From: Kiloniellaceae bacterium
Lineage (GTDB): Bacteria; Pseudomonadota; Alphaproteobacteria; Kiloniellales; Kiloniellaceae
NCBI GenBank assembly: GCA_009377535.1
Contig: WHTV01000011.1
Location: 1 to 64,000 of the forward strand
Direction of reading: 5' to 3'
DNA: 64,000 bases
The notes under the pieces are model-generated. The model was not told the origin of the DNA. It worked only from the letters and a program-made list of their open reading frames with translations, and did no database searches. The translations under genes were made by a program, and so were the position numbers. This document shows positions 33,857 through 43,023 of the stretch, one piece after another; position 1 is the first letter of the stretch, and each line of letters opens with the position of its first letter.

Positions 33857-34648
33857 CTATACCGGCGTCACCTGGGGGCAGCCGCGGGTCGGGTGGCGGG
33901 TGACGTGGACCGGCAGGTCGAAGGCCGCCAGCACGAGGTCCTCGGTGAGCACGGCCTCGGCCGAGCCCTCGGCCGCCAGCTGCCCGCCGCTCAGCACCAC
34001 CAGGCGGTCGGCATACATGGCGGCCAGATTGAGATCGTGCAGGATGGCGAGCACGCCGATGCCGCGCGCGGCCGCGCGACGGGCCGTGCGCAGCGTCGCG
34101 TGCTGGTGCGCCAGGTCGAGGCTGGCGGTCGGCTCGTCGAGCAGCAGGTAGCGGCCCTGCCGCCCCGTTCCGGCCGCCGGGAAGTCGATCTGGGCCAGCA
34201 CCCGGGCGAGCTGCACGCGCTGGCGCTCGCCGCCGGAGAGCGTGGGGTAGCTGCGCCCGGCGAGCGGGGCGACCTCCGCCTCGGCGAGGCAGGCCTCGGC
34301 CACGGCGAGGTCCTGGTCCCGCGTGGCGGTGCCGGCGTGCGGCGAGCGTCCCAGCAGCACGACCTCCAGCACCGAGAACCCGAAGGCCAGCTCGGAGTGC
34401 TGCGGCAGCACGGCGCGGCGCAGTGCCAGGGCCCGCGGCGCCCAGGCCGCAAGCGCCTTGCCCTCCAAGGCCACCTCCCCCCGGTGGGGCCTCAGAGTGC
34501 CGGCGAGCACCGCCAGCAGGGTCGACTTGCCGGCGCCATTGGGCCCCAGCACTGCCACCACCTCGCCGGGTGCCACGGCGAGCGAAGGCCCGCGCAGCAC
34601 CTCGGCGGGTCCGTAGGAAACCCCGATGTCGTCGGCGCGCAGCATCAC
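33857..34648 (-). CDS. hmuV: Heme ABC importer ATP-binding protein
   Basis: A 263-residue ATPase with Walker A GPNGAGKST, signature LSGGERQRVQLARVL and Walker B LLLDEPTASLD. The LDLAHQHATLRTARRAAARGIGVLAILHDLNLA stretch is typical of HmuV. It is the last gene of the hmuRSTUV operon and overlaps hmuU as ATGA. It powers heme transfer from periplasm to cytoplasm. Confidence 0.94.
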   Translation of the reverse strand: MMLRADDIGVSYGPAEVLRGPSLAVAPGEVVAVLGPNGAGKSTLLAVLAGTLRPHRGEVALEGKALAAWAPRALALRRAVLPQHSELAFGFSVLEVVLLGRSPHAGTATRDQDLAVAEACLAEAEVAPLAGRSYPTLSGGERQRVQLARVLAQIDFPAAGTGRQGRYLLLDEPTASLDLAHQHATLRTARRAAARGIGVLAILHDLNLAAMYADRLVVLSGGQLAAEGSAEAVLTEDLVLAAFDLPVHVTRHPTRGCPQVTPV

Positions 34649-35736
34649 CAGCCGCCCCGCTTCTTGCGGCGCAGCAGCAGCCAGATGAAGAACGGCCCGC
34701 CGACGCAGGCGGTGAGGATGCCGATCGGCAGCTCGGCCGGCAGCACCAGGGTGCGCGCGAAGAGGTCGGCGACCAGCAGCAGGCTCGCCCCCAGCAGGAT
34801 GGAGAGCGGCATGAGCAGGCGGTGGTCCGGCCCGACGCAGAGCCGCACCACGTGCGGCACCACCAGGCCGACGAAGCTGATGACGCCGGTCAGCGCCACC
34901 GCAGTGCCGGCGGCCAACGCCGCCAGCACGACGATCAGCCGTTTGCTGCGCTCGACGTAGAAGCCCAGGTGTCCGGCCTCGCTCTCCCCCAGCAGCAGCG
35001 CGTTCAGCTGGCGCGCGAAGAGCGGCAGCGCCGCCGCGCCGAGCAGCATCGGCAGGCCGGCGAAGATCAGGCGGTCCCAGGTGACGCCGCCCAGGCTGCC
35101 GAGCAGCCAGTAGTTCAGGTCACGCAGCTGCTGCTCGTCGCTGAGGAAAACCATGAAGCCGATGCCGGCGGCGGCCAGGGCGTTCACCGCGACGCCGGCC
35201 AGCAGCATGGTGGCGACGTCGGTGCGCCCCTCGCGGCTGGCGATGCGGTAGACCACGAAGGTGGCGGCGAGCCCGCCGCCGAAGGCGGCCAGCGGCAAGA
35301 GCGCCTGGCCCACGACGGGCGGCAAAATCGCGGCGAGCGCGCCGCCCAGCACGATCACCATGACGGCGGCCAGCGCCGCGCCGTTGGAAACGCCGATCAG
35401 CGCCGGGTCGGCCAGCGGGTTGCGGAACAGCCCCTGCAGCGCCGCGCCGGCGACCCCCAGCGCGCCCCCCACCAGGATGCCGGCGACGGCGCGCGGCAGG
35501 CGGATCGCCAGCAGCACAGCCTGTTCCTGGCGCGTGAAGTCCCATGGCAATTCGATCCCGGCCTGCGCCGCGAGAATGGCCAGGACGCGGCCGGGCGGAA
35601 TCGCCACGGCGCCGTAGCCGACCGCCAGCAGGAAGGCGGCCCCCAGTCCCAGCGCGAAGACCCACAGGGCGAGCAGCCCGCGGCGCTGGCGCTGCTGCGC
35701 GAAGCGCGTCACCTCGGCCATGGCGATGCTGCTCAT
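34645..35736 (-). CDS. hmuU: Heme ABC importer permease (FecCD family)
   Basis: A 363-residue permease with about nine to ten spans. LAIRLPRAVAGILVGGALGVAGAALQGLFRNPLADP is the FecCD/BtuC hallmark and the C-terminal half has ALTGVISFVGLVVPHVVRL. I chose the ATG at 35736, eight bases after hmuT; a second ATG five codons later is also possible. It forms the membrane channel for heme. Confidence 0.94.
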   Translation of the reverse strand: MSSIAMAEVTRFAQQRQRRGLLALWVFALGLGAAFLLAVGYGAVAIPPGRVLAILAAQAGIELPWDFTRQEQAVLLAIRLPRAVAGILVGGALGVAGAALQGLFRNPLADPALIGVSNGAALAAVMVIVLGGALAAILPPVVGQALLPLAAFGGGLAATFVVYRIASREGRTDVATMLLAGVAVNALAAAGIGFMVFLSDEQQLRDLNYWLLGSLGGVTWDRLIFAGLPMLLGAAALPLFARQLNALLLGESEAGHLGFYVERSKRLIVVLAALAAGTAVALTGVISFVGLVVPHVVRLCVGPDHRLLMPLSILLGASLLLVADLFARTLVLPAELPIGILTACVGGPFFIWLLLRRKKRGGW

Positions 35737-35743
35737 GACCCGG

Positions 35744-36625
35744 CTATTGCGGCGCCGGAGATGTCTCGGCCGGCAGCGCGATCTCCGGGTGCAGTTCGCG
35801 GCCCAGCAGGTCGGCCGCCTCCGCCGTGCGCGGCCCGAAGCCGAGCAGCAGCAGGCCGTCCATGGTGACCACGCGGCCATTCTGGGCGGCGGGCGTCAGC
35901 GCGACCTCCGGGATCGACAGCAAGCCCTCCAGGCCGCCCAGCAGGTCCAGCGAGCGCCAGGTGACCAGCAGCACCTCCGGTGCCGCGGCGACGGCCGCTT
36001 CCGGCGACAGTGGCTTGTAGCTCTCGAAACCATCGATGGCGTTGACGCCGCCGGCGAGATGGATAATCCCCTCGGCCGAGGTCCTGCGCCCGGCGGCCAC
36101 GGTCGTGCGGCCCTGACTGATGGTGAGCAGGAAGAGCACGCGCGGGCGTGTGGACACGTCGCCGAAGGCGGCCTTCACCGCGTCCAGCTCGGCGGCCACC
36201 TCGGCGCGCAGGGCGCGACCTTTCTCCTCGACGCCCAGCGCCGCCGCGATCACCTCGATCTTGTCCAGCACGCCCTCGGGCGTGTAGTCGTCCGGCACGG
36301 TCACCACCGGCACCCCGGCATCCTCGATCTGCTCGAGTGCGGCCGGTGGCCCGGAATCCGCGATGGCCAGCACCATGTCCGGGCCCAGCGCCAGGATCGG
36401 CTCGGCCGAGAGCTGGCGCATGTAGCCGACGTTGGGCAGGTCGCCGGTCGCTGCCGGATAAAGGCTGGTCGAGTCCACCGCCAGCAGGCGGTCCGCCTCG
36501 CCCAGGGCATAGACGATCTCGGTCACCGAGCCGCCGACCGCGACGATGCGGCCGTCTGCAGCCTGCGCCGCGGAAGCGGCGAAGAGGACCAGCGCGGCAA
36601 AAAAGAACCTCGTCACCCCCCTCAT
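35744..36625 (-). CDS. hmuT: Periplasmic heme-binding protein
   Basis: A 293-residue cluster-III binding protein. The signal peptide is RFFFAALVLFAASAAQA. The mature N-terminus ADGRIVAVGGSVTEIVYALGEADRLLAVDSTSLYP and EVLLVTWRSL fit HmuT; the axial Tyr of HmuT proteins is probably the one in SLYP. Its ATG overlaps the hmuS stop as ATGA. Confidence 0.93.
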   Translation of the reverse strand: MRGVTRFFFAALVLFAASAAQAADGRIVAVGGSVTEIVYALGEADRLLAVDSTSLYPAATGDLPNVGYMRQLSAEPILALGPDMVLAIADSGPPAALEQIEDAGVPVVTVPDDYTPEGVLDKIEVIAAALGVEEKGRALRAEVAAELDAVKAAFGDVSTRPRVLFLLTISQGRTTVAAGRRTSAEGIIHLAGGVNAIDGFESYKPLSPEAAVAAAPEVLLVTWRSLDLLGGLEGLLSIPEVALTPAAQNGRVVTMDGLLLLGFGPRTAEAADLLGRELHPEIALPAETSPAPQ

Positions 36626-37704
36626 TGGACCGCCACTCCCTCGGGCACGCCCGCCGGCGGCAGGGCCTCGATCAGCGCGCGCCAGTCGGCGCGCTCGGCT
36701 TCGCCGTCGACCCGCTCGCCGAACATCCAGGCGATCTGGCCGCCCGCGGCGTCATAGATCTCCAGCGAGGTGACGAGGCCGTCGCGGGTCGGCTTGCGCA
36801 CCACCCAGGCCTCGGCGATGTCGCCGTCGCGCAGGTGCAGGTTGAAGCCGGGATCGAGCACGTTGAACCACGGGCCGACTTCCTTCAGAGTCGCAACCGG
36901 CCCGGTGTGGATCTGCACCACGCCGGGGCTGCCGACGAAGATCATGATCGGCAGGGCGGAGGCCGCGGCCTGCTCCAACGCCTGACGGAAGCTGCCGCTG
37001 GCGAGACGGTAGGCGAAGTCCTCGCCGACCAGGCGGAAGGCCTGCAGCCGACCGGCGCCGAGCTCGATCAGCATGTCGCGGAAGTCGTGCACGTCCTGCA
37101 AGGCCTGCCAGCGCTCGCGCAGTGCCGCGCGGTCGATGGCGGCGTCGGGCCGGTCGGCGGGTTTGGGTGCCGTGGGCGCCGTCTCGATGGCGGGCGACTG
37201 GTCGGCGTGCTGGTACTTCGCGACCACCGCCTCGTAGGCCTGCCGGTCGGACTCAGCGCGCAGGTAGATCTTGTGCACCGCCAGACCGTCCAGGTCGAAG
37301 AACTGCAGGCTGTGGCGCAGCCCGCTGCGCACCTCCTCGATGACCGCGAAGCCGAAGTGCCAGTGATTGAAGAACAGGCGCAGGTCGATCTCGCGGTTCA
37401 GCACCAGGCCCATGCTATGAAAGGCCGAAACCTTGTCGAAGCGGCCGGCCTTCTCGTGCACGGCGCTTTCGTTGCGGGTCAGCACCATGACCTCGCCCAG
37501 CGCCGGCATCTCCTTCAGCAGTTCCGGCCAGGGCCCGTCGAGCCGCCGCACGCCCTCGCCGCAGCGCGCCGCGAGCAGCTCGCCCTCGGAAACGCCGAGC
37601 TTGTCGGCGGCATCACGGGCGCGCAGCCCCGGCTCTTCCTCTTTCAGCGCCAGCCAGCGTCGGCGCAGGCCGGCACCCACTACTTCTCCTTCGACCTTTT
37701 CCAT
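36622..37704 (-). CDS. hmuS: Hemin-degrading factor
   Basis: A 360-residue cytoplasmic protein with two tandem ChuS-type domains. SAFHSMGLVLNREIDLRLFFNHWHFGFAVIEEV in the first half is repeated as VGSPGVVQIHTGPVATLKEVGPWFNVLDPGFNLHLRDGDIAEAWVVRKPT in the second. HmuS proteins bind and open heme to release iron. It lies between the receptor and hmuT, 41 bases after hmuR. Confidence 0.94.
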   Translation of the reverse strand: MEKVEGEVVGAGLRRRWLALKEEEPGLRARDAADKLGVSEGELLAARCGEGVRRLDGPWPELLKEMPALGEVMVLTRNESAVHEKAGRFDKVSAFHSMGLVLNREIDLRLFFNHWHFGFAVIEEVRSGLRHSLQFFDLDGLAVHKIYLRAESDRQAYEAVVAKYQHADQSPAIETAPTAPKPADRPDAAIDRAALRERWQALQDVHDFRDMLIELGAGRLQAFRLVGEDFAYRLASGSFRQALEQAAASALPIMIFVGSPGVVQIHTGPVATLKEVGPWFNVLDPGFNLHLRDGDIAEAWVVRKPTRDGLVTSLEIYDAAGGQIAWMFGERVDGEAERADWRALIEALPPAGVPEGVAVQ

Positions 37705-37745
37705 TCTTTGCTCTCCCGATCCTGTGGTCTGCGCCGTGTCGGCTT

Positions 37746-39935
37746 TCAGAACTTAAGGCTGTAGCTGACCAGCGCTTTGAAGTTGCGGCCCGGCTCCTTC
37801 ACGCTGGCGAAGACGCGCTCGTAGTCCTCGTCGAAGAGGTTGTCGACGCCGAGGTCGACCCGGAATCCCTGGAGAAGACCTTCGCTCGGCGCCCAGGCGA
37901 CGAAGATGTCGTGCACGTCGTAGGGGCCGCGGTTCTCGTCGCGGTCGTCGACCTTGTCGAACTCCAGGCCGAAGGTGCTGCGCCAGCCGAACAGCGAGTC
38001 GATCTCCGGCACCTTCACGCCGCCCATGAGGATGAACTGGTCCTCGGTCAGCACGCCCAGCTTCTCGCCGGTGTCGCGGTTCTCGCCGTCGATGGTGGAA
38101 TAGCCGAAGGTGCCGAGGAAGCGCGGCCCGTCGTAGGAGGCCTCCACTTCGGTACCCCACAGCTTCGCCTTGGGCACGTTCACCGAGGTGGTGGTGCCGT
38201 CGCAGGCGCCGGGAATGAAAGGGTTACAGCCGGTGAAGAAGTCCTCGCGCTGCACCACGTCCAAATCGATGAAGTCCTTGCCGTAGGTGATGTAGTGCGA
38301 CGCCTTGATCTGGAAGCGGTCGTTGTTCTGAAACACGTCGTCGAAGTCCAGGCCCGCGCCGAACTCGAAGGTCTCGGTGCGTTGCGGGTCGAGGTCCGGG
38401 TTGGCGACGAAGCGGTTGAACACCGTCGCGCCGGGCCCCAGGGGAATGATGAAGTGGTTCCCCTCCAGGTACATCTCGTTGATGCTCGGCGCGCGGAAGG
38501 CGTGGCCGTAGCTGCCGAAGACCATCAGCCAGTCGGTCGGCAGGTAACTGATGCCGATGCGCGGCGAGATCGCCTCGTCCTTGTTGGTATCGGCGATGTC
38601 GCTGGAGGACTCGTAGGAGTCGAAGCGCACGCCCGGGATGATCAGCAGGTCTCCCGGCAGCACGCCGAAAGGCTCGGCGACGGAGATCTCCGCCTGCGCG
38701 AAGATGCCGTAGAAGGTGGCGTCGGCGTCGGGTACGCCGTCGGCCTCGCCGTTCGCCGCGGCGCCTTCCTGGACGTCGCGGTAGAATTCGCCGCCGTAGG
38801 TGAAGACCGTGCCGATGTCGTCGCTCAGCATGACCCGCGAGCGGTTGTCGACGCGCAAGCCGATGGTGTCGACCTCACGCGTCAGCGTCTCGCCTTCGGG
38901 CCCGAGGTTGCCCAGGTCGTCGAGGCGCAGCACGTCGGTCTTGAAGTCGGTGTAGTAGGTGACGACGTCCAGGTCGATCAGGTTGTTGGACGGGTCGTGG
39001 TAGTTGTAGGCGAGCCGCCAGGTGTCGGAGGCGATGTCCTTCTCGGTCAGGTCGTCGCCGCCCGCGCCCTGCCCGTTGAAGGGCTCTTCCGCCGTGTTGC
39101 GGAAGGTCAGGAAGGAACCCTCGATGCGGTGGTGCTCGGCGAAGCTGTAACTGACCTTGCCGAGGCCGGAGATGATGTCGTCGTCGCTGTTGGTCAGCTC
39201 GGTGCCGTCGCCCAGTTCGATGGAGCCGGAATCGCGCTTGGCGATATTGGCAACAACGTCGAGCCCTTCGACCGGTTGCGCGAACCCGGTGAAGCTGCCG
39301 AAGGTCTCACGATTTACCGTCTGGTAGCCGGTCCCCACCTTGGCGCCGACCGTCTCGCCCTCGCCCAGGAAGTCCGCGGCATCGATGGTGCGGAATTCGA
39401 TGACGCCGCCCATGCCGCCGCTGCCGTACAGCGAGGAGGCCGGCCCGCGCACCACCTCGACGGACTTCAGCACCGAGGGATCGATGAAGAAGCGGCCGTT
39501 GTGGCCGGTGTCGACGTTCTGCCGCGCGCCGTCGAAGAGGATGATGACGTCCGGCCCCGAGAAGCCGCGGATGCTCGGCACCTCGCCGGTGCGCCGCGGC
39601 CCGCCGGAGAACTCGACGCCCGGCACGAAGCGCAGGATGTCGTCGGGCGTCGAGGGCTGTAGCGTCTGCATCTCCTGCGGGCCGATCACCGTCACCATGC
39701 CCGGATATTCGAAAGCTCTCATCGGGTTGCGCGTCGCGGTCACCGAGACGCCCTCCAGCTCGACGGCTTCGTCGCCAGCCCCTTCGCCGGATGCCTCCTG
39801 CGCCAGTTGTTCGCCGGCGACGGCGGGCTCGCCCGCGCTGCCCTCCGCTTCGACGGTCTGTGCCATGGCCATGCCGCCCGACAGCAACGCCAAGATGGAA
39901 ACGCTCGCGCCCCAAAAACGATTTCGACCAACCAT
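37746..39935 (-). CDS. hmuR: TonB-dependent heme/hemoglobin outer-membrane receptor
   Basis: A 729-residue outer-membrane receptor. Signal peptide RFWGASVSILALLSGGMAMA is followed by an acidic linker, then the TonB box/plug region (VSVTATRNPMRAFEYPGMVTVIG) and SLYGSGGMGGVIEFRT. The barrel holds the heme-receptor motifs FRAP (HAFRAPSINEMYLEG) and NPDL (VANPDLDPQRTETFEFG). It ends in SYSLKF with the terminal Phe expected for outer-membrane insertion. It starts the hmu operon after hmuP. Confidence 0.94.
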   Translation of the reverse strand: MVGRNRFWGASVSILALLSGGMAMAQTVEAEGSAGEPAVAGEQLAQEASGEGAGDEAVELEGVSVTATRNPMRAFEYPGMVTVIGPQEMQTLQPSTPDDILRFVPGVEFSGGPRRTGEVPSIRGFSGPDVIILFDGARQNVDTGHNGRFFIDPSVLKSVEVVRGPASSLYGSGGMGGVIEFRTIDAADFLGEGETVGAKVGTGYQTVNRETFGSFTGFAQPVEGLDVVANIAKRDSGSIELGDGTELTNSDDDIISGLGKVSYSFAEHHRIEGSFLTFRNTAEEPFNGQGAGGDDLTEKDIASDTWRLAYNYHDPSNNLIDLDVVTYYTDFKTDVLRLDDLGNLGPEGETLTREVDTIGLRVDNRSRVMLSDDIGTVFTYGGEFYRDVQEGAAANGEADGVPDADATFYGIFAQAEISVAEPFGVLPGDLLIIPGVRFDSYESSSDIADTNKDEAISPRIGISYLPTDWLMVFGSYGHAFRAPSINEMYLEGNHFIIPLGPGATVFNRFVANPDLDPQRTETFEFGAGLDFDDVFQNNDRFQIKASHYITYGKDFIDLDVVQREDFFTGCNPFIPGACDGTTTSVNVPKAKLWGTEVEASYDGPRFLGTFGYSTIDGENRDTGEKLGVLTEDQFILMGGVKVPEIDSLFGWRSTFGLEFDKVDDRDENRGPYDVHDIFVAWAPSEGLLQGFRVDLGVDNLFDEDYERVFASVKEPGRNFKALVSYSLKF

Positions 39936-40961: not shown

Positions 40962-41028
40962 GCCTGGTTGGAACTACTACCTTTGATCAGCCTTGATGGC
41001 GGCCGGTGGAACCGGCCGGGCTCTTTTT
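40962..41028 (+). ncRNA. Candidate small RNA (MmgR/SuhB-like) or 3' terminator
   Basis: A strong Rho-independent terminator is direct: GGCCGGT (41001-41007) pairs with ACCGGCC (41011-41017), with TTTTT at 41024-41028. The unpaired segment before it (ACCTTTGATCAGCC) resembles, from memory, the conserved part of the alphaproteobacterial MmgR/SuhB sRNA family. The start at 40962 is a guess. The alternative is the simple terminator of the CMD gene. No promoter boxes are convincing. Confidence 0.4.
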
Positions 41029-41160: not shown

Positions 41161-43023
41161 ATGCTTTGGCACCTTGTTCATGCGGCCGAGCGTGCACCTG
41201 GCTGGTGGAAAGTGCGTCCTTTCCTGCTGCCTCGCGTGGCGGCGCTGCACCGCAGGCGGCTCGGAAAGGTCACCTTCGTCGCCATCACGGGAAGCGCCGG
41301 GAAGACCACGGCCAAGGTCCTGGCCACCGCCGTACTTGCGACCGCGGGCAAGATCCGGCCGTGGGCCGGAACGATGAACAATTCCGATCACATCATGAAC
41401 GTCATCGTCGCCACCCAGCCGGACGATGATTTCTGCGTGGTCGAGTTCTCGGCAAACGAACCGGGTTATCTGGACCGCTCCCTGGGCACCGTGAGGCCCC
41501 GGATCGGCGTGGTCACCTCGATCGGCACGGATCACCTCAAGGCGTTCCACTCGATCGAGGCGATTGCCGAAGAGAAGGCCAAGGTGATCGCCTGCCTGCC
41601 GGAGAACGGCACCGCCGTGCTGAATGCGGACGATCCTCGGGTGATGGCCATGGCGGATCGCTTCGCGGGCACCATCATCACCTTCGGCCTCGCGGAGCAT
41701 GCTGCGCTGCGCGCCGAGCATGTCCGCGCGGCCTGGCCGGAACGGCTTTCCTTCACCGCGGTCCACCAGGGCCGTGCCGTCGCGGTCCGGACCCAGCTCT
41801 GCGGCACGCACTGGATCTCCGCCGCGCTCGCCGCACTCGCCGTCGGGCTCGCCGCGGGAATTTCCCTGGACCAGGCGGCAAAGGCCATTGAAGCCGTAGA
41901 GCCGTACCCCAGCCGCATGTGCCCCATGACCAGCGACGACGGCGTGACCTTCATCGTCGACGACTGGAAGTCCTCGCTGTGGACGATGGACTCGGTCTTC
42001 GACTTCCTAAAGACTGCTGACGCGAACAGGAAGATCATCGCCATCGGCACCCTATCCGACTACGGCGGGACCACCGCGACGGTCTATTCCCGCGTGGCCA
42101 AATCCGCGTTGGAGGTCGCGGATCATGTCCTCTTCGTCGGACCGATGGCGACGCACGCCCTGCGCGCCAAGGACCCAGAGACTGCACAGCGGCTCCATGC
42201 CTTTGCGACGATCAAAGATGCAGCAAACGTCCTGCGCTCGCTTCTGCGCAGCGGTGACCTCGTCGTGGTGAAGGGCACCATGAACGCCGACCACCTCGGC
42301 CGGCTCGCGCATCACTGGCTTGAGCCGATCTCGTGCTGGCGCATGGATTGCGGCAAGAACATGCCGTGCAGTGTCTGCGGCGCGCTGCGTGCGGATGTGA
42401 CGAGCGCATCCCGGCAAGCTGGCCGGCCACCGGCAGCGGCGGTACCCCCTTCCCGGCAGATCAACTTGGCCGTGCTTCCACAATGCACGACCCCGATGGA
42501 GGTCCTTGTGGGGATCGGAAATCCTGGAGAACGCTATCAGAATACGCCGCATAACGTCGGCGTCGGCGTCCTGGATGCCATGGTCGAGAGGCTCGATCTC
42601 ACTTGGAGCGTCCATGACGACGTCGCCCTGGCGCACGGCAAGCTGAACGGCAAGACGATCCTGCTGGCAAAGCCGCAGACCTATGTCAACAACACCGGCA
42701 AGTGCCTCAAGGAACTATCCGAGGCGCTCGGTTTCCGAGCCGAGGACTGCGTCCTGATCCAGGACGACATCCACCTGCCCCTCGGCAAGCTGCGCAGCCG
42801 GGCGCGCGGCAGCGACGGCGGCCACAAAGGCGTGCGCTCCGTCCTGGTCACCTTCCAGACCGACGAGTTTCGCCGCCTGAAGATCGGCGTCGCGCCGACC
42901 GGCCCGCCGCCTTCCGCCGCGGAATACCTTACGACCCCCTTCACCGCCGAAGCCGCCGCCACGATCGATCCTGCCATCAATGCCGCGGTCGACCGACTGC
43001 TGTCGATGTTCGGGGAAGCGTAG
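41161..43023 (+). CDS. Fusion of a MurF-like ligase and a peptidyl-tRNA-hydrolase-like domain
   Basis: A 620-residue protein with two recognisable parts. Residues 1-390 form a Mur-ligase: P-loop TGSAGKTT (43-50), TSIGTDHLKAFHS, LNADDPRVMA and a C-terminal block with VDDWKSSLWTMDSVFDFLK and IGTLSDYGG, most like MurF. A linker follows with four cysteines (392, 397, 403, 406; C-x4-C-x5-C-x2-C), possibly a zinc knuckle. Residues 446-620 are Pth-like: GIGNPGERYQNTPHNVG holds Asn454 and the catalytic His464; KPQTYVNNTG and LIQDDIHLPLG give Asn510 and Asp535. The Asn of GGHNG is Lys556. No cell-wall or translation gene is nearby, so this is not the housekeeping MurF or Pth. Confidence 0.85.
   Translation: MLWHLVHAAERAPGWWKVRPFLLPRVAALHRRRLGKVTFVAITGSAGKTTAKVLATAVLATAGKIRPWAGTMNNSDHIMNVIVATQPDDDFCVVEFSANEPGYLDRSLGTVRPRIGVVTSIGTDHLKAFHSIEAIAEEKAKVIACLPENGTAVLNADDPRVMAMADRFAGTIITFGLAEHAALRAEHVRAAWPERLSFTAVHQGRAVAVRTQLCGTHWISAALAALAVGLAAGISLDQAAKAIEAVEPYPSRMCPMTSDDGVTFIVDDWKSSLWTMDSVFDFLKTADANRKIIAIGTLSDYGGTTATVYSRVAKSALEVADHVLFVGPMATHALRAKDPETAQRLHAFATIKDAANVLRSLLRSGDLVVVKGTMNADHLGRLAHHWLEPISCWRMDCGKNMPCSVCGALRADVTSASRQAGRPPAAAVPPSRQINLAVLPQCTTPMEVLVGIGNPGERYQNTPHNVGVGVLDAMVERLDLTWSVHDDVALAHGKLNGKTILLAKPQTYVNNTGKCLKELSEALGFRAEDCVLIQDDIHLPLGKLRSRARGSDGGHKGVRSVLVTFQTDEFRRLKIGVAPTGPPPSAAEYLTTPFTAEAAATIDPAINAAVDRLLSMFGEA

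Follow-up and report, generated by a model that had tools for sequence, protein, structure and literature searches.

Mur ligases and peptidyl-tRNA hydrolases (Pth) are essential housekeeping enzymes and studied drug targets, and both are seldom found with new partners. Multidomain chains that contain a Mur module are known, among them cyanophycin synthetase and further Mur-type amide ligases that have gained domains; in cyanophycin synthetase, the partner of the Mur ligase is an ATP-grasp domain, not a Pth. The Pth fold serves another purpose in CRS2, a Pth-derived splicing factor for chloroplast group II introns, which has no ligase domain.

We analyzed a 64,000-nucleotide stretch of contig WHTV01000011.1 from a Kiloniellaceae bacterium (here, the window), in which one gene joins both kinds of enzyme. 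Its first half resembles MurF (UDP-N-acetylmuramoyl-tripeptide--D-alanyl-D-alanine ligase; TIGR01143) in the middle and C-terminal folds and in the P-loop, Glu, His, Lys, Arg, and Asp residues of the core. Unlike MurF, it has no N-terminal UDP-MurNAc domain, carries other residues in place of the HNxxN and YNANP motifs, is extended by a four-cysteine (Cys4) tail and a Pth domain, and lies outside any dcw cluster. The second half resembles Pth1 (PF01195, TIGR00447) in fold, in passing both curated cutoffs, and in the residues equivalent to N10, H20, N68, and D93, but it sits behind a ligase, has Lys for N114 and Pro for R19, and has lost the GHPG segment and the C-terminal helix. It is not specifically close to CRS2 in sequence. 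An earlier note on this DNA knew of no described enzyme with this architecture, and none was found in the literature and libraries searched, which did not extend to UniProt or InterPro. Matches of the protein to solved structures cover one domain or the other, not both. Both parts belong to known families; as far as the searches show, their fusion is undescribed.

Domain organization of the fusion gene

The gene and its parts map as follows (positions in the window).

41161..43023, + strand: Mur-ligase/Pth fusion gene, 620 codons plus stop in a single frame
41284..41844, + strand: Mur ligase middle (ATPase) domain, residues 42-228 (Pfam PF08245, 3.8e-33)
41287..41310, + strand: P-loop TGSAGKTT, residues 43-50, within the Mur middle domain
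41914..42276, + strand: Mur ligase C-terminal domain, residues 252-372 (Pfam PF02875, 1.7e-9)
42334..42378, + strand: Cys4 motif C392-x4-C397-x5-C403-x2-C406, a putative zinc knuckle
42397..42495, + strand: interdomain linker, residues 413-445, 33 residues rich in Ala, Pro, and Arg
42496..43020, + strand: Pth domain, residues 446-620 (Pfam PF01195, 2.3e-42; TIGR00447, 135.4 bits)
41000..41018, + strand: terminator-like hairpin with a T run, between a carboxymuconolactone decarboxylase gene and the fusion gene

The Mur_ligase_M, Mur_ligase_C, and Pept_tRNA_hydro matches each exceeded the Pfam gathering score, the last extending over residues 449-616, and the order of the parts is Mur middle domain, Mur C-terminal domain, Cys4 motif with linker, and Pth. 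The earlier note had described one continuous 620-codon frame containing the P-loop TGSAGKTT and the catalytic His and Asp of Pth. All of this was borne out: the frame is uninterrupted and shows neither a stop nor a frameshift from residue 390 to residue 446, the P-loop is in place, and H464 and D535 are accompanied by N454 and N510.

Codon usage and GC3 of both the Mur and the Pth domains are those of coding DNA in this frame; the codon usage of both is like that of the neighbouring genes here and in no other frame. Codon periodicity was absent from the 33-codon linker. GC3 of the whole gene was 0.82, as opposed to at least 0.90 in the neighbours. A chance origin of the domain matches is excluded, judging from their E-values and from the same fusion in a second genome (see below), and the second genome together with the codon usage rules out an assembly chimera or a hidden stop.

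The Pth part begins with Met446, at the start position of a normal Pth. A separate Pth initiated there was rejected as the sole product: no strong ribosome site was seen by eye upstream, and the junction of the sister gene lacks a start codon. It may be made as an additional product besides the fusion.

The ligase half is not a MurF

Among curated families, murF (TIGR01143; 4.7e-61) matched the ligase half best, but the score of 207 bits was below the cutoff of 288.6 and the match began only at position 65 of the 418 in the profile. With only about 35 helical residues ahead of the ATPase domain, the protein lacks the UDP-MurNAc domain. In an alignment with MurFs, the Mur core retains G47-K48-T49, E95, H125, K139, N155, R252, and D267. 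K139 occupies the position of the carbamylated lysine of the MurF core. In contrast, the HNxxN and DDSYNANP motifs of MurF are missing; the fusion has GTHWISAAL and VDDWKSSLW (WKSSL for YNANP). The earlier note had called the central and C-terminal blocks of this half MurF-like; identity with MurF was rejected on the missing UDP-MurNAc domain and motifs, the TIGR01143 score, and membership in another Mur subfamily. Given the missing domain and motifs, the substrate is probably not UDP-MurNAc-tripeptide.

The ligase half instead belongs to a group for which we use the name Cys4 Mur-ligase subfamily, given in this analysis: it falls within the clade, has the four-cysteine spacing, and lacks HNxxN, which like YNANP is absent from the whole subfamily. 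Most members are stand-alone proteins of 413 to 451 codons in which four cysteines (CWxxxCxxxxxCxxC and variants) come directly behind the C-terminal domain and the chain ends about 20 to 40 residues past the motif. The cysteines are invariant in the aligned stand-alone members, and the motif is probably a zinc knuckle that would bind zinc. The P-loop, Glu, and His are present in all these stand-alone Cys4 ligases; the ligase lysine is kept in the compared rows, except in the second fusion.

AF2 models were built for the Mur and Pth halves separately and were confident (pLDDT of 85 and 84). The model of the Mur half was closest to the MurF structure 4qf5 (TM score of 0.77). The pLDDT of the Cys4 tail was under 50.

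The Pth half keeps the catalytic residues and departs from canonical Pths elsewhere

The Pth half scored 145.3 bits against PF01195 (cutoff of 27) and exceeded the TIGR00447 cutoff of 100, and its model superimposed on the Enterococcus faecium Pth 7y52 with a TM score of 0.88. N454, H464, N510, and D535 correspond to N10, H20, N68, and D93 of the E. coli enzyme; compared with that enzyme and 30 canonical Pths, both fused domains keep these four residues. Basic residues were likewise kept in both at the positions of K105 and R133 (R547 and K574 in the window), the two residues that clamp the tRNA 5' phosphate in E. coli Pth.

Other positions have changed in both fusions. R19, an Arg in 30/30 canonical Pths, is replaced by Pro (P463 in the window), and N114, an Asn in 30/30, is replaced by Lys or Arg (K556 in the window). 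Both also lack, in the alignment, the C-terminal helix and the GHPG stretch of the lid loop. The net charge is -3, versus a median near +3 in canonical Pths. The C-terminal helix of Pth touches tRNA and probably helps to bind it; its loss, along with the changed loops, makes ordinary peptidyl-tRNA recycling by the fused domain doubtful. The Pth of Thermus has an Arg at the N114 position that matters for catalysis, and the enzyme is active (PMC11994314), so Lys or Arg there is compatible with hydrolysis. Hydrolysis by the fused domain is thus possible.

A second, damaged fusion in another order

A class-wide search identified a second Mur-Pth fusion in genome G221, from another order of the same class. 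This homologue (L053:663-2425, minus strand) lies near a contig end. Its domains follow the order of the window gene, with Mur middle, Mur C-terminal, and Pth all on one strand, but over three reading frames separated by two frameshifts. In its C-terminal part, Mur runs into Pth in one frame, and the junction contains no ATG, GTG, or TTG; the fusion is therefore genuine in G221 as well.

The G221 gene has no Cys4 motif and has Ile in place of K139; the large neighbouring genes on its contig are intact. The frameshifts and the loss of the lysine indicate that the gene is dispensable there and that this is probably a decaying copy, sequencing error being possible. The window protein and its G221 counterpart are 43 to 45% identical over Mur and 39% identical over Pth; no other row of the Mur and Pth trees comes as close to the window protein. 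The two copies pair in the Pth tree (99/99), on very long branches, and in the Mur tree (89/89), within a 100/99 clade. The simplest reading of both trees is one old fusion event, kept since.

The distribution of the fusion is very patchy. No third case was found in 61 genomes of the window's order, in 16 genomes of the order of G221, in 385 genomes of the class, or in 398 genomes of the phylum; in the large samples, scoring was confined to the top few candidates of each genome, so that weak fusions may have escaped notice. None was present in the plasmids, phages, or viral contigs searched. Scanning 275 genomes of the class with a DNA pattern that encodes the derived motif D-G-G-H-x-G-V-R gave the two fusions and one chance match in an unrelated gene.

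Genomic context

The Kiloniellaceae genome is a draft in 317 contigs, with the fusion gene inside a 69-kb contig, and contains only one such gene. Separate MurF-, MurE-, and MurC-like genes are found together on one contig and a separate canonical Pth on a different one. The fusion is therefore an extra gene and not a displaced housekeeping copy, as the earlier note had proposed from the lack of cell-wall or translation genes around it. That lack was confirmed: the surroundings encode FecCD, HemS, a TonB receptor, a carboxymuconolactone decarboxylase, FAD oxidoreductases, a GCV_T-type dehydrogenase, and an ABC transporter. The haem uptake set (34645-39935, minus strand), with FecCD permease, substrate-binding protein, HemS/ChuX, and TonB receptor, is of an ordinary kind.

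The hairpin upstream of the fusion gene is weak (two overlapping matches in a consensus scan versus 1.1 expected in shuffles), and the next gene downstream is convergent. Given this arrangement, the fusion gene is probably transcribed alone. The neighbours include no pathway genes that would hint at a substrate, and a biosynthetic cluster was rejected since the neighbours are unrelated. Neither a defence system (PADLOC gave no match) nor a phage gene (PHROGs gave only weak Pth and Mur matches, and viral contigs and phage records contained no fusion) fits the locus.

Proposed function and alternatives

The catalytic cores of both halves are, by alignment, largely intact. We tentatively favor, at somewhat less than an even chance, a bifunctional enzyme in which an ATP-dependent amide ligase and an ester-cleaving Pth work on the same acyl group and not in general recycling. 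The Mur half would activate a carboxylate with ATP, in a substrate other than a UDP-MurNAc-peptide, as an acyl phosphate and then join it to an amine. The Pth half would cleave an acyl ester, either at the acceptor end of peptidyl- or aminoacyl-tRNA or in a smaller molecule. Less surely, it would act on the acyl group of the ligase, supplying the free carboxylate or removing unwanted ester products. General peptidyl-tRNA recycling would be left to the separate Pth of the genome, the fused domain probably having been repurposed. Functional coupling of the halves is an assumption here; coupling to tRNA is inferred, and involvement of the acceptor end is less sure. A single chain whose Pth part frees, or takes over, the aminoacyl or peptidyl group of a tRNA acceptor end, and whose Mur part ligates it with ATP into an amide, appears quite unlikely. 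Counting against the bifunctional enzyme are the absence of pathway genes nearby and of constant neighbours around the stand-alone Cys4 ligases, the frameshifted G221 copy without the ligase lysine, and, in the Pth half, the missing helix, changed lid loop, and negative net charge.

The missing helix would also suit a Pth domain that is no longer a hydrolase and instead binds RNA or a ligand, or acts as a scaffold, within a Cys4 Mur ligase, by analogy with CRS2. The altered base and lid loops, the changes at N114 and R19, and the long branches are consistent with such a role, and CRS2 (1ryb, TM score of 0.88) is among the close structural matches of the Pth half. However, the four core catalytic residues have been kept in both copies despite great divergence, and the Pth half still scores over the pth equivalog cutoff. 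We regard this as unlikely.

It is also rather improbable that the chain holds two uncoupled activities, a Cys4 ligase gene having lost its stop codon and run on into a duplicated pth, with each half still acting alone. The stand-alone ligases do end shortly past the motif, the linker lacks codon periodicity, as expected of a read-through spacer, and the Pth part starts with a methionine where a normal Pth begins. Yet the same join is found in another order with no start codon at the beginning of Pth, and the derived changes common to both fused domains occur in 0/30 canonical Pths.

We consider it very unlikely that the gene is on its way out in both lineages, neutral or decaying and with no present function. 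The damage in G221, the lowered GC3 of the window gene, and the patchy distribution would fit, whereas in the window the gene runs unbroken through 620 codons, has the codon usage of coding DNA, and retains both catalytic sets in full. A stop lost or two genes joined through an error of assembly or sequencing is scarcely credible even for a draft genome holding the only intact copy known, in view of the independent fusion in another genome, the position inside a large contig, and the coding usage of both domains in the same frame.

For the favored bifunctional enzyme, a conserved fusion with both catalytic cores implies that ATP-driven amide formation meets ester cleavage, possibly at the tRNA acceptor end. 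If true, the tRNA reading would constitute an undescribed link between charged tRNA and Mur-type ligation.

Stand-alone Cys4 Mur ligases

The fusion also points to an uncharacterised Cys4 Mur-ligase subfamily in Alphaproteobacteria-like genomes. The nearest relatives of the fused ligase half are stand-alone members of this subfamily: L006, two tandem genes in G011, a plasmid gene of Gemmobacter aquarius, and genes of four genomes of one genus (g305). They share with the fusion the ligase domain, the missing motifs, the Cys4 spacing, and the 100/99 clade but have no Pth domain; an example is the G. aquarius protein WP_108437331.1, annotated as "Mur ligase family protein." No neighbourhood was common to the Cys4 ligases of Gemmobacter, genus g305, G011, and G034.

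The tandem genes in G011, which is of the window's family, are adjacent and form a paralogous pair without Pth (L055:10958-12256 and L055:12391-13713). The g305 genes (L104:9354-10658, L105:9212-10516, L106:9358-10638, and L107:2883-4193) have the same gene order in the four genomes. They are mostly flanked by an SDR gene and an SH3-type gene and lie near sugar metabolism genes, to which they have no evident link; the C-terminal tail, as read in L098, is very basic. The G. aquarius plasmid gene (L054:9797-11122) lies in a polysaccharide cluster with a formyltransferase, a pyruvyl transferase, and glycosyltransferases, the only context that hints at the substrate of a Cys4 ligase.
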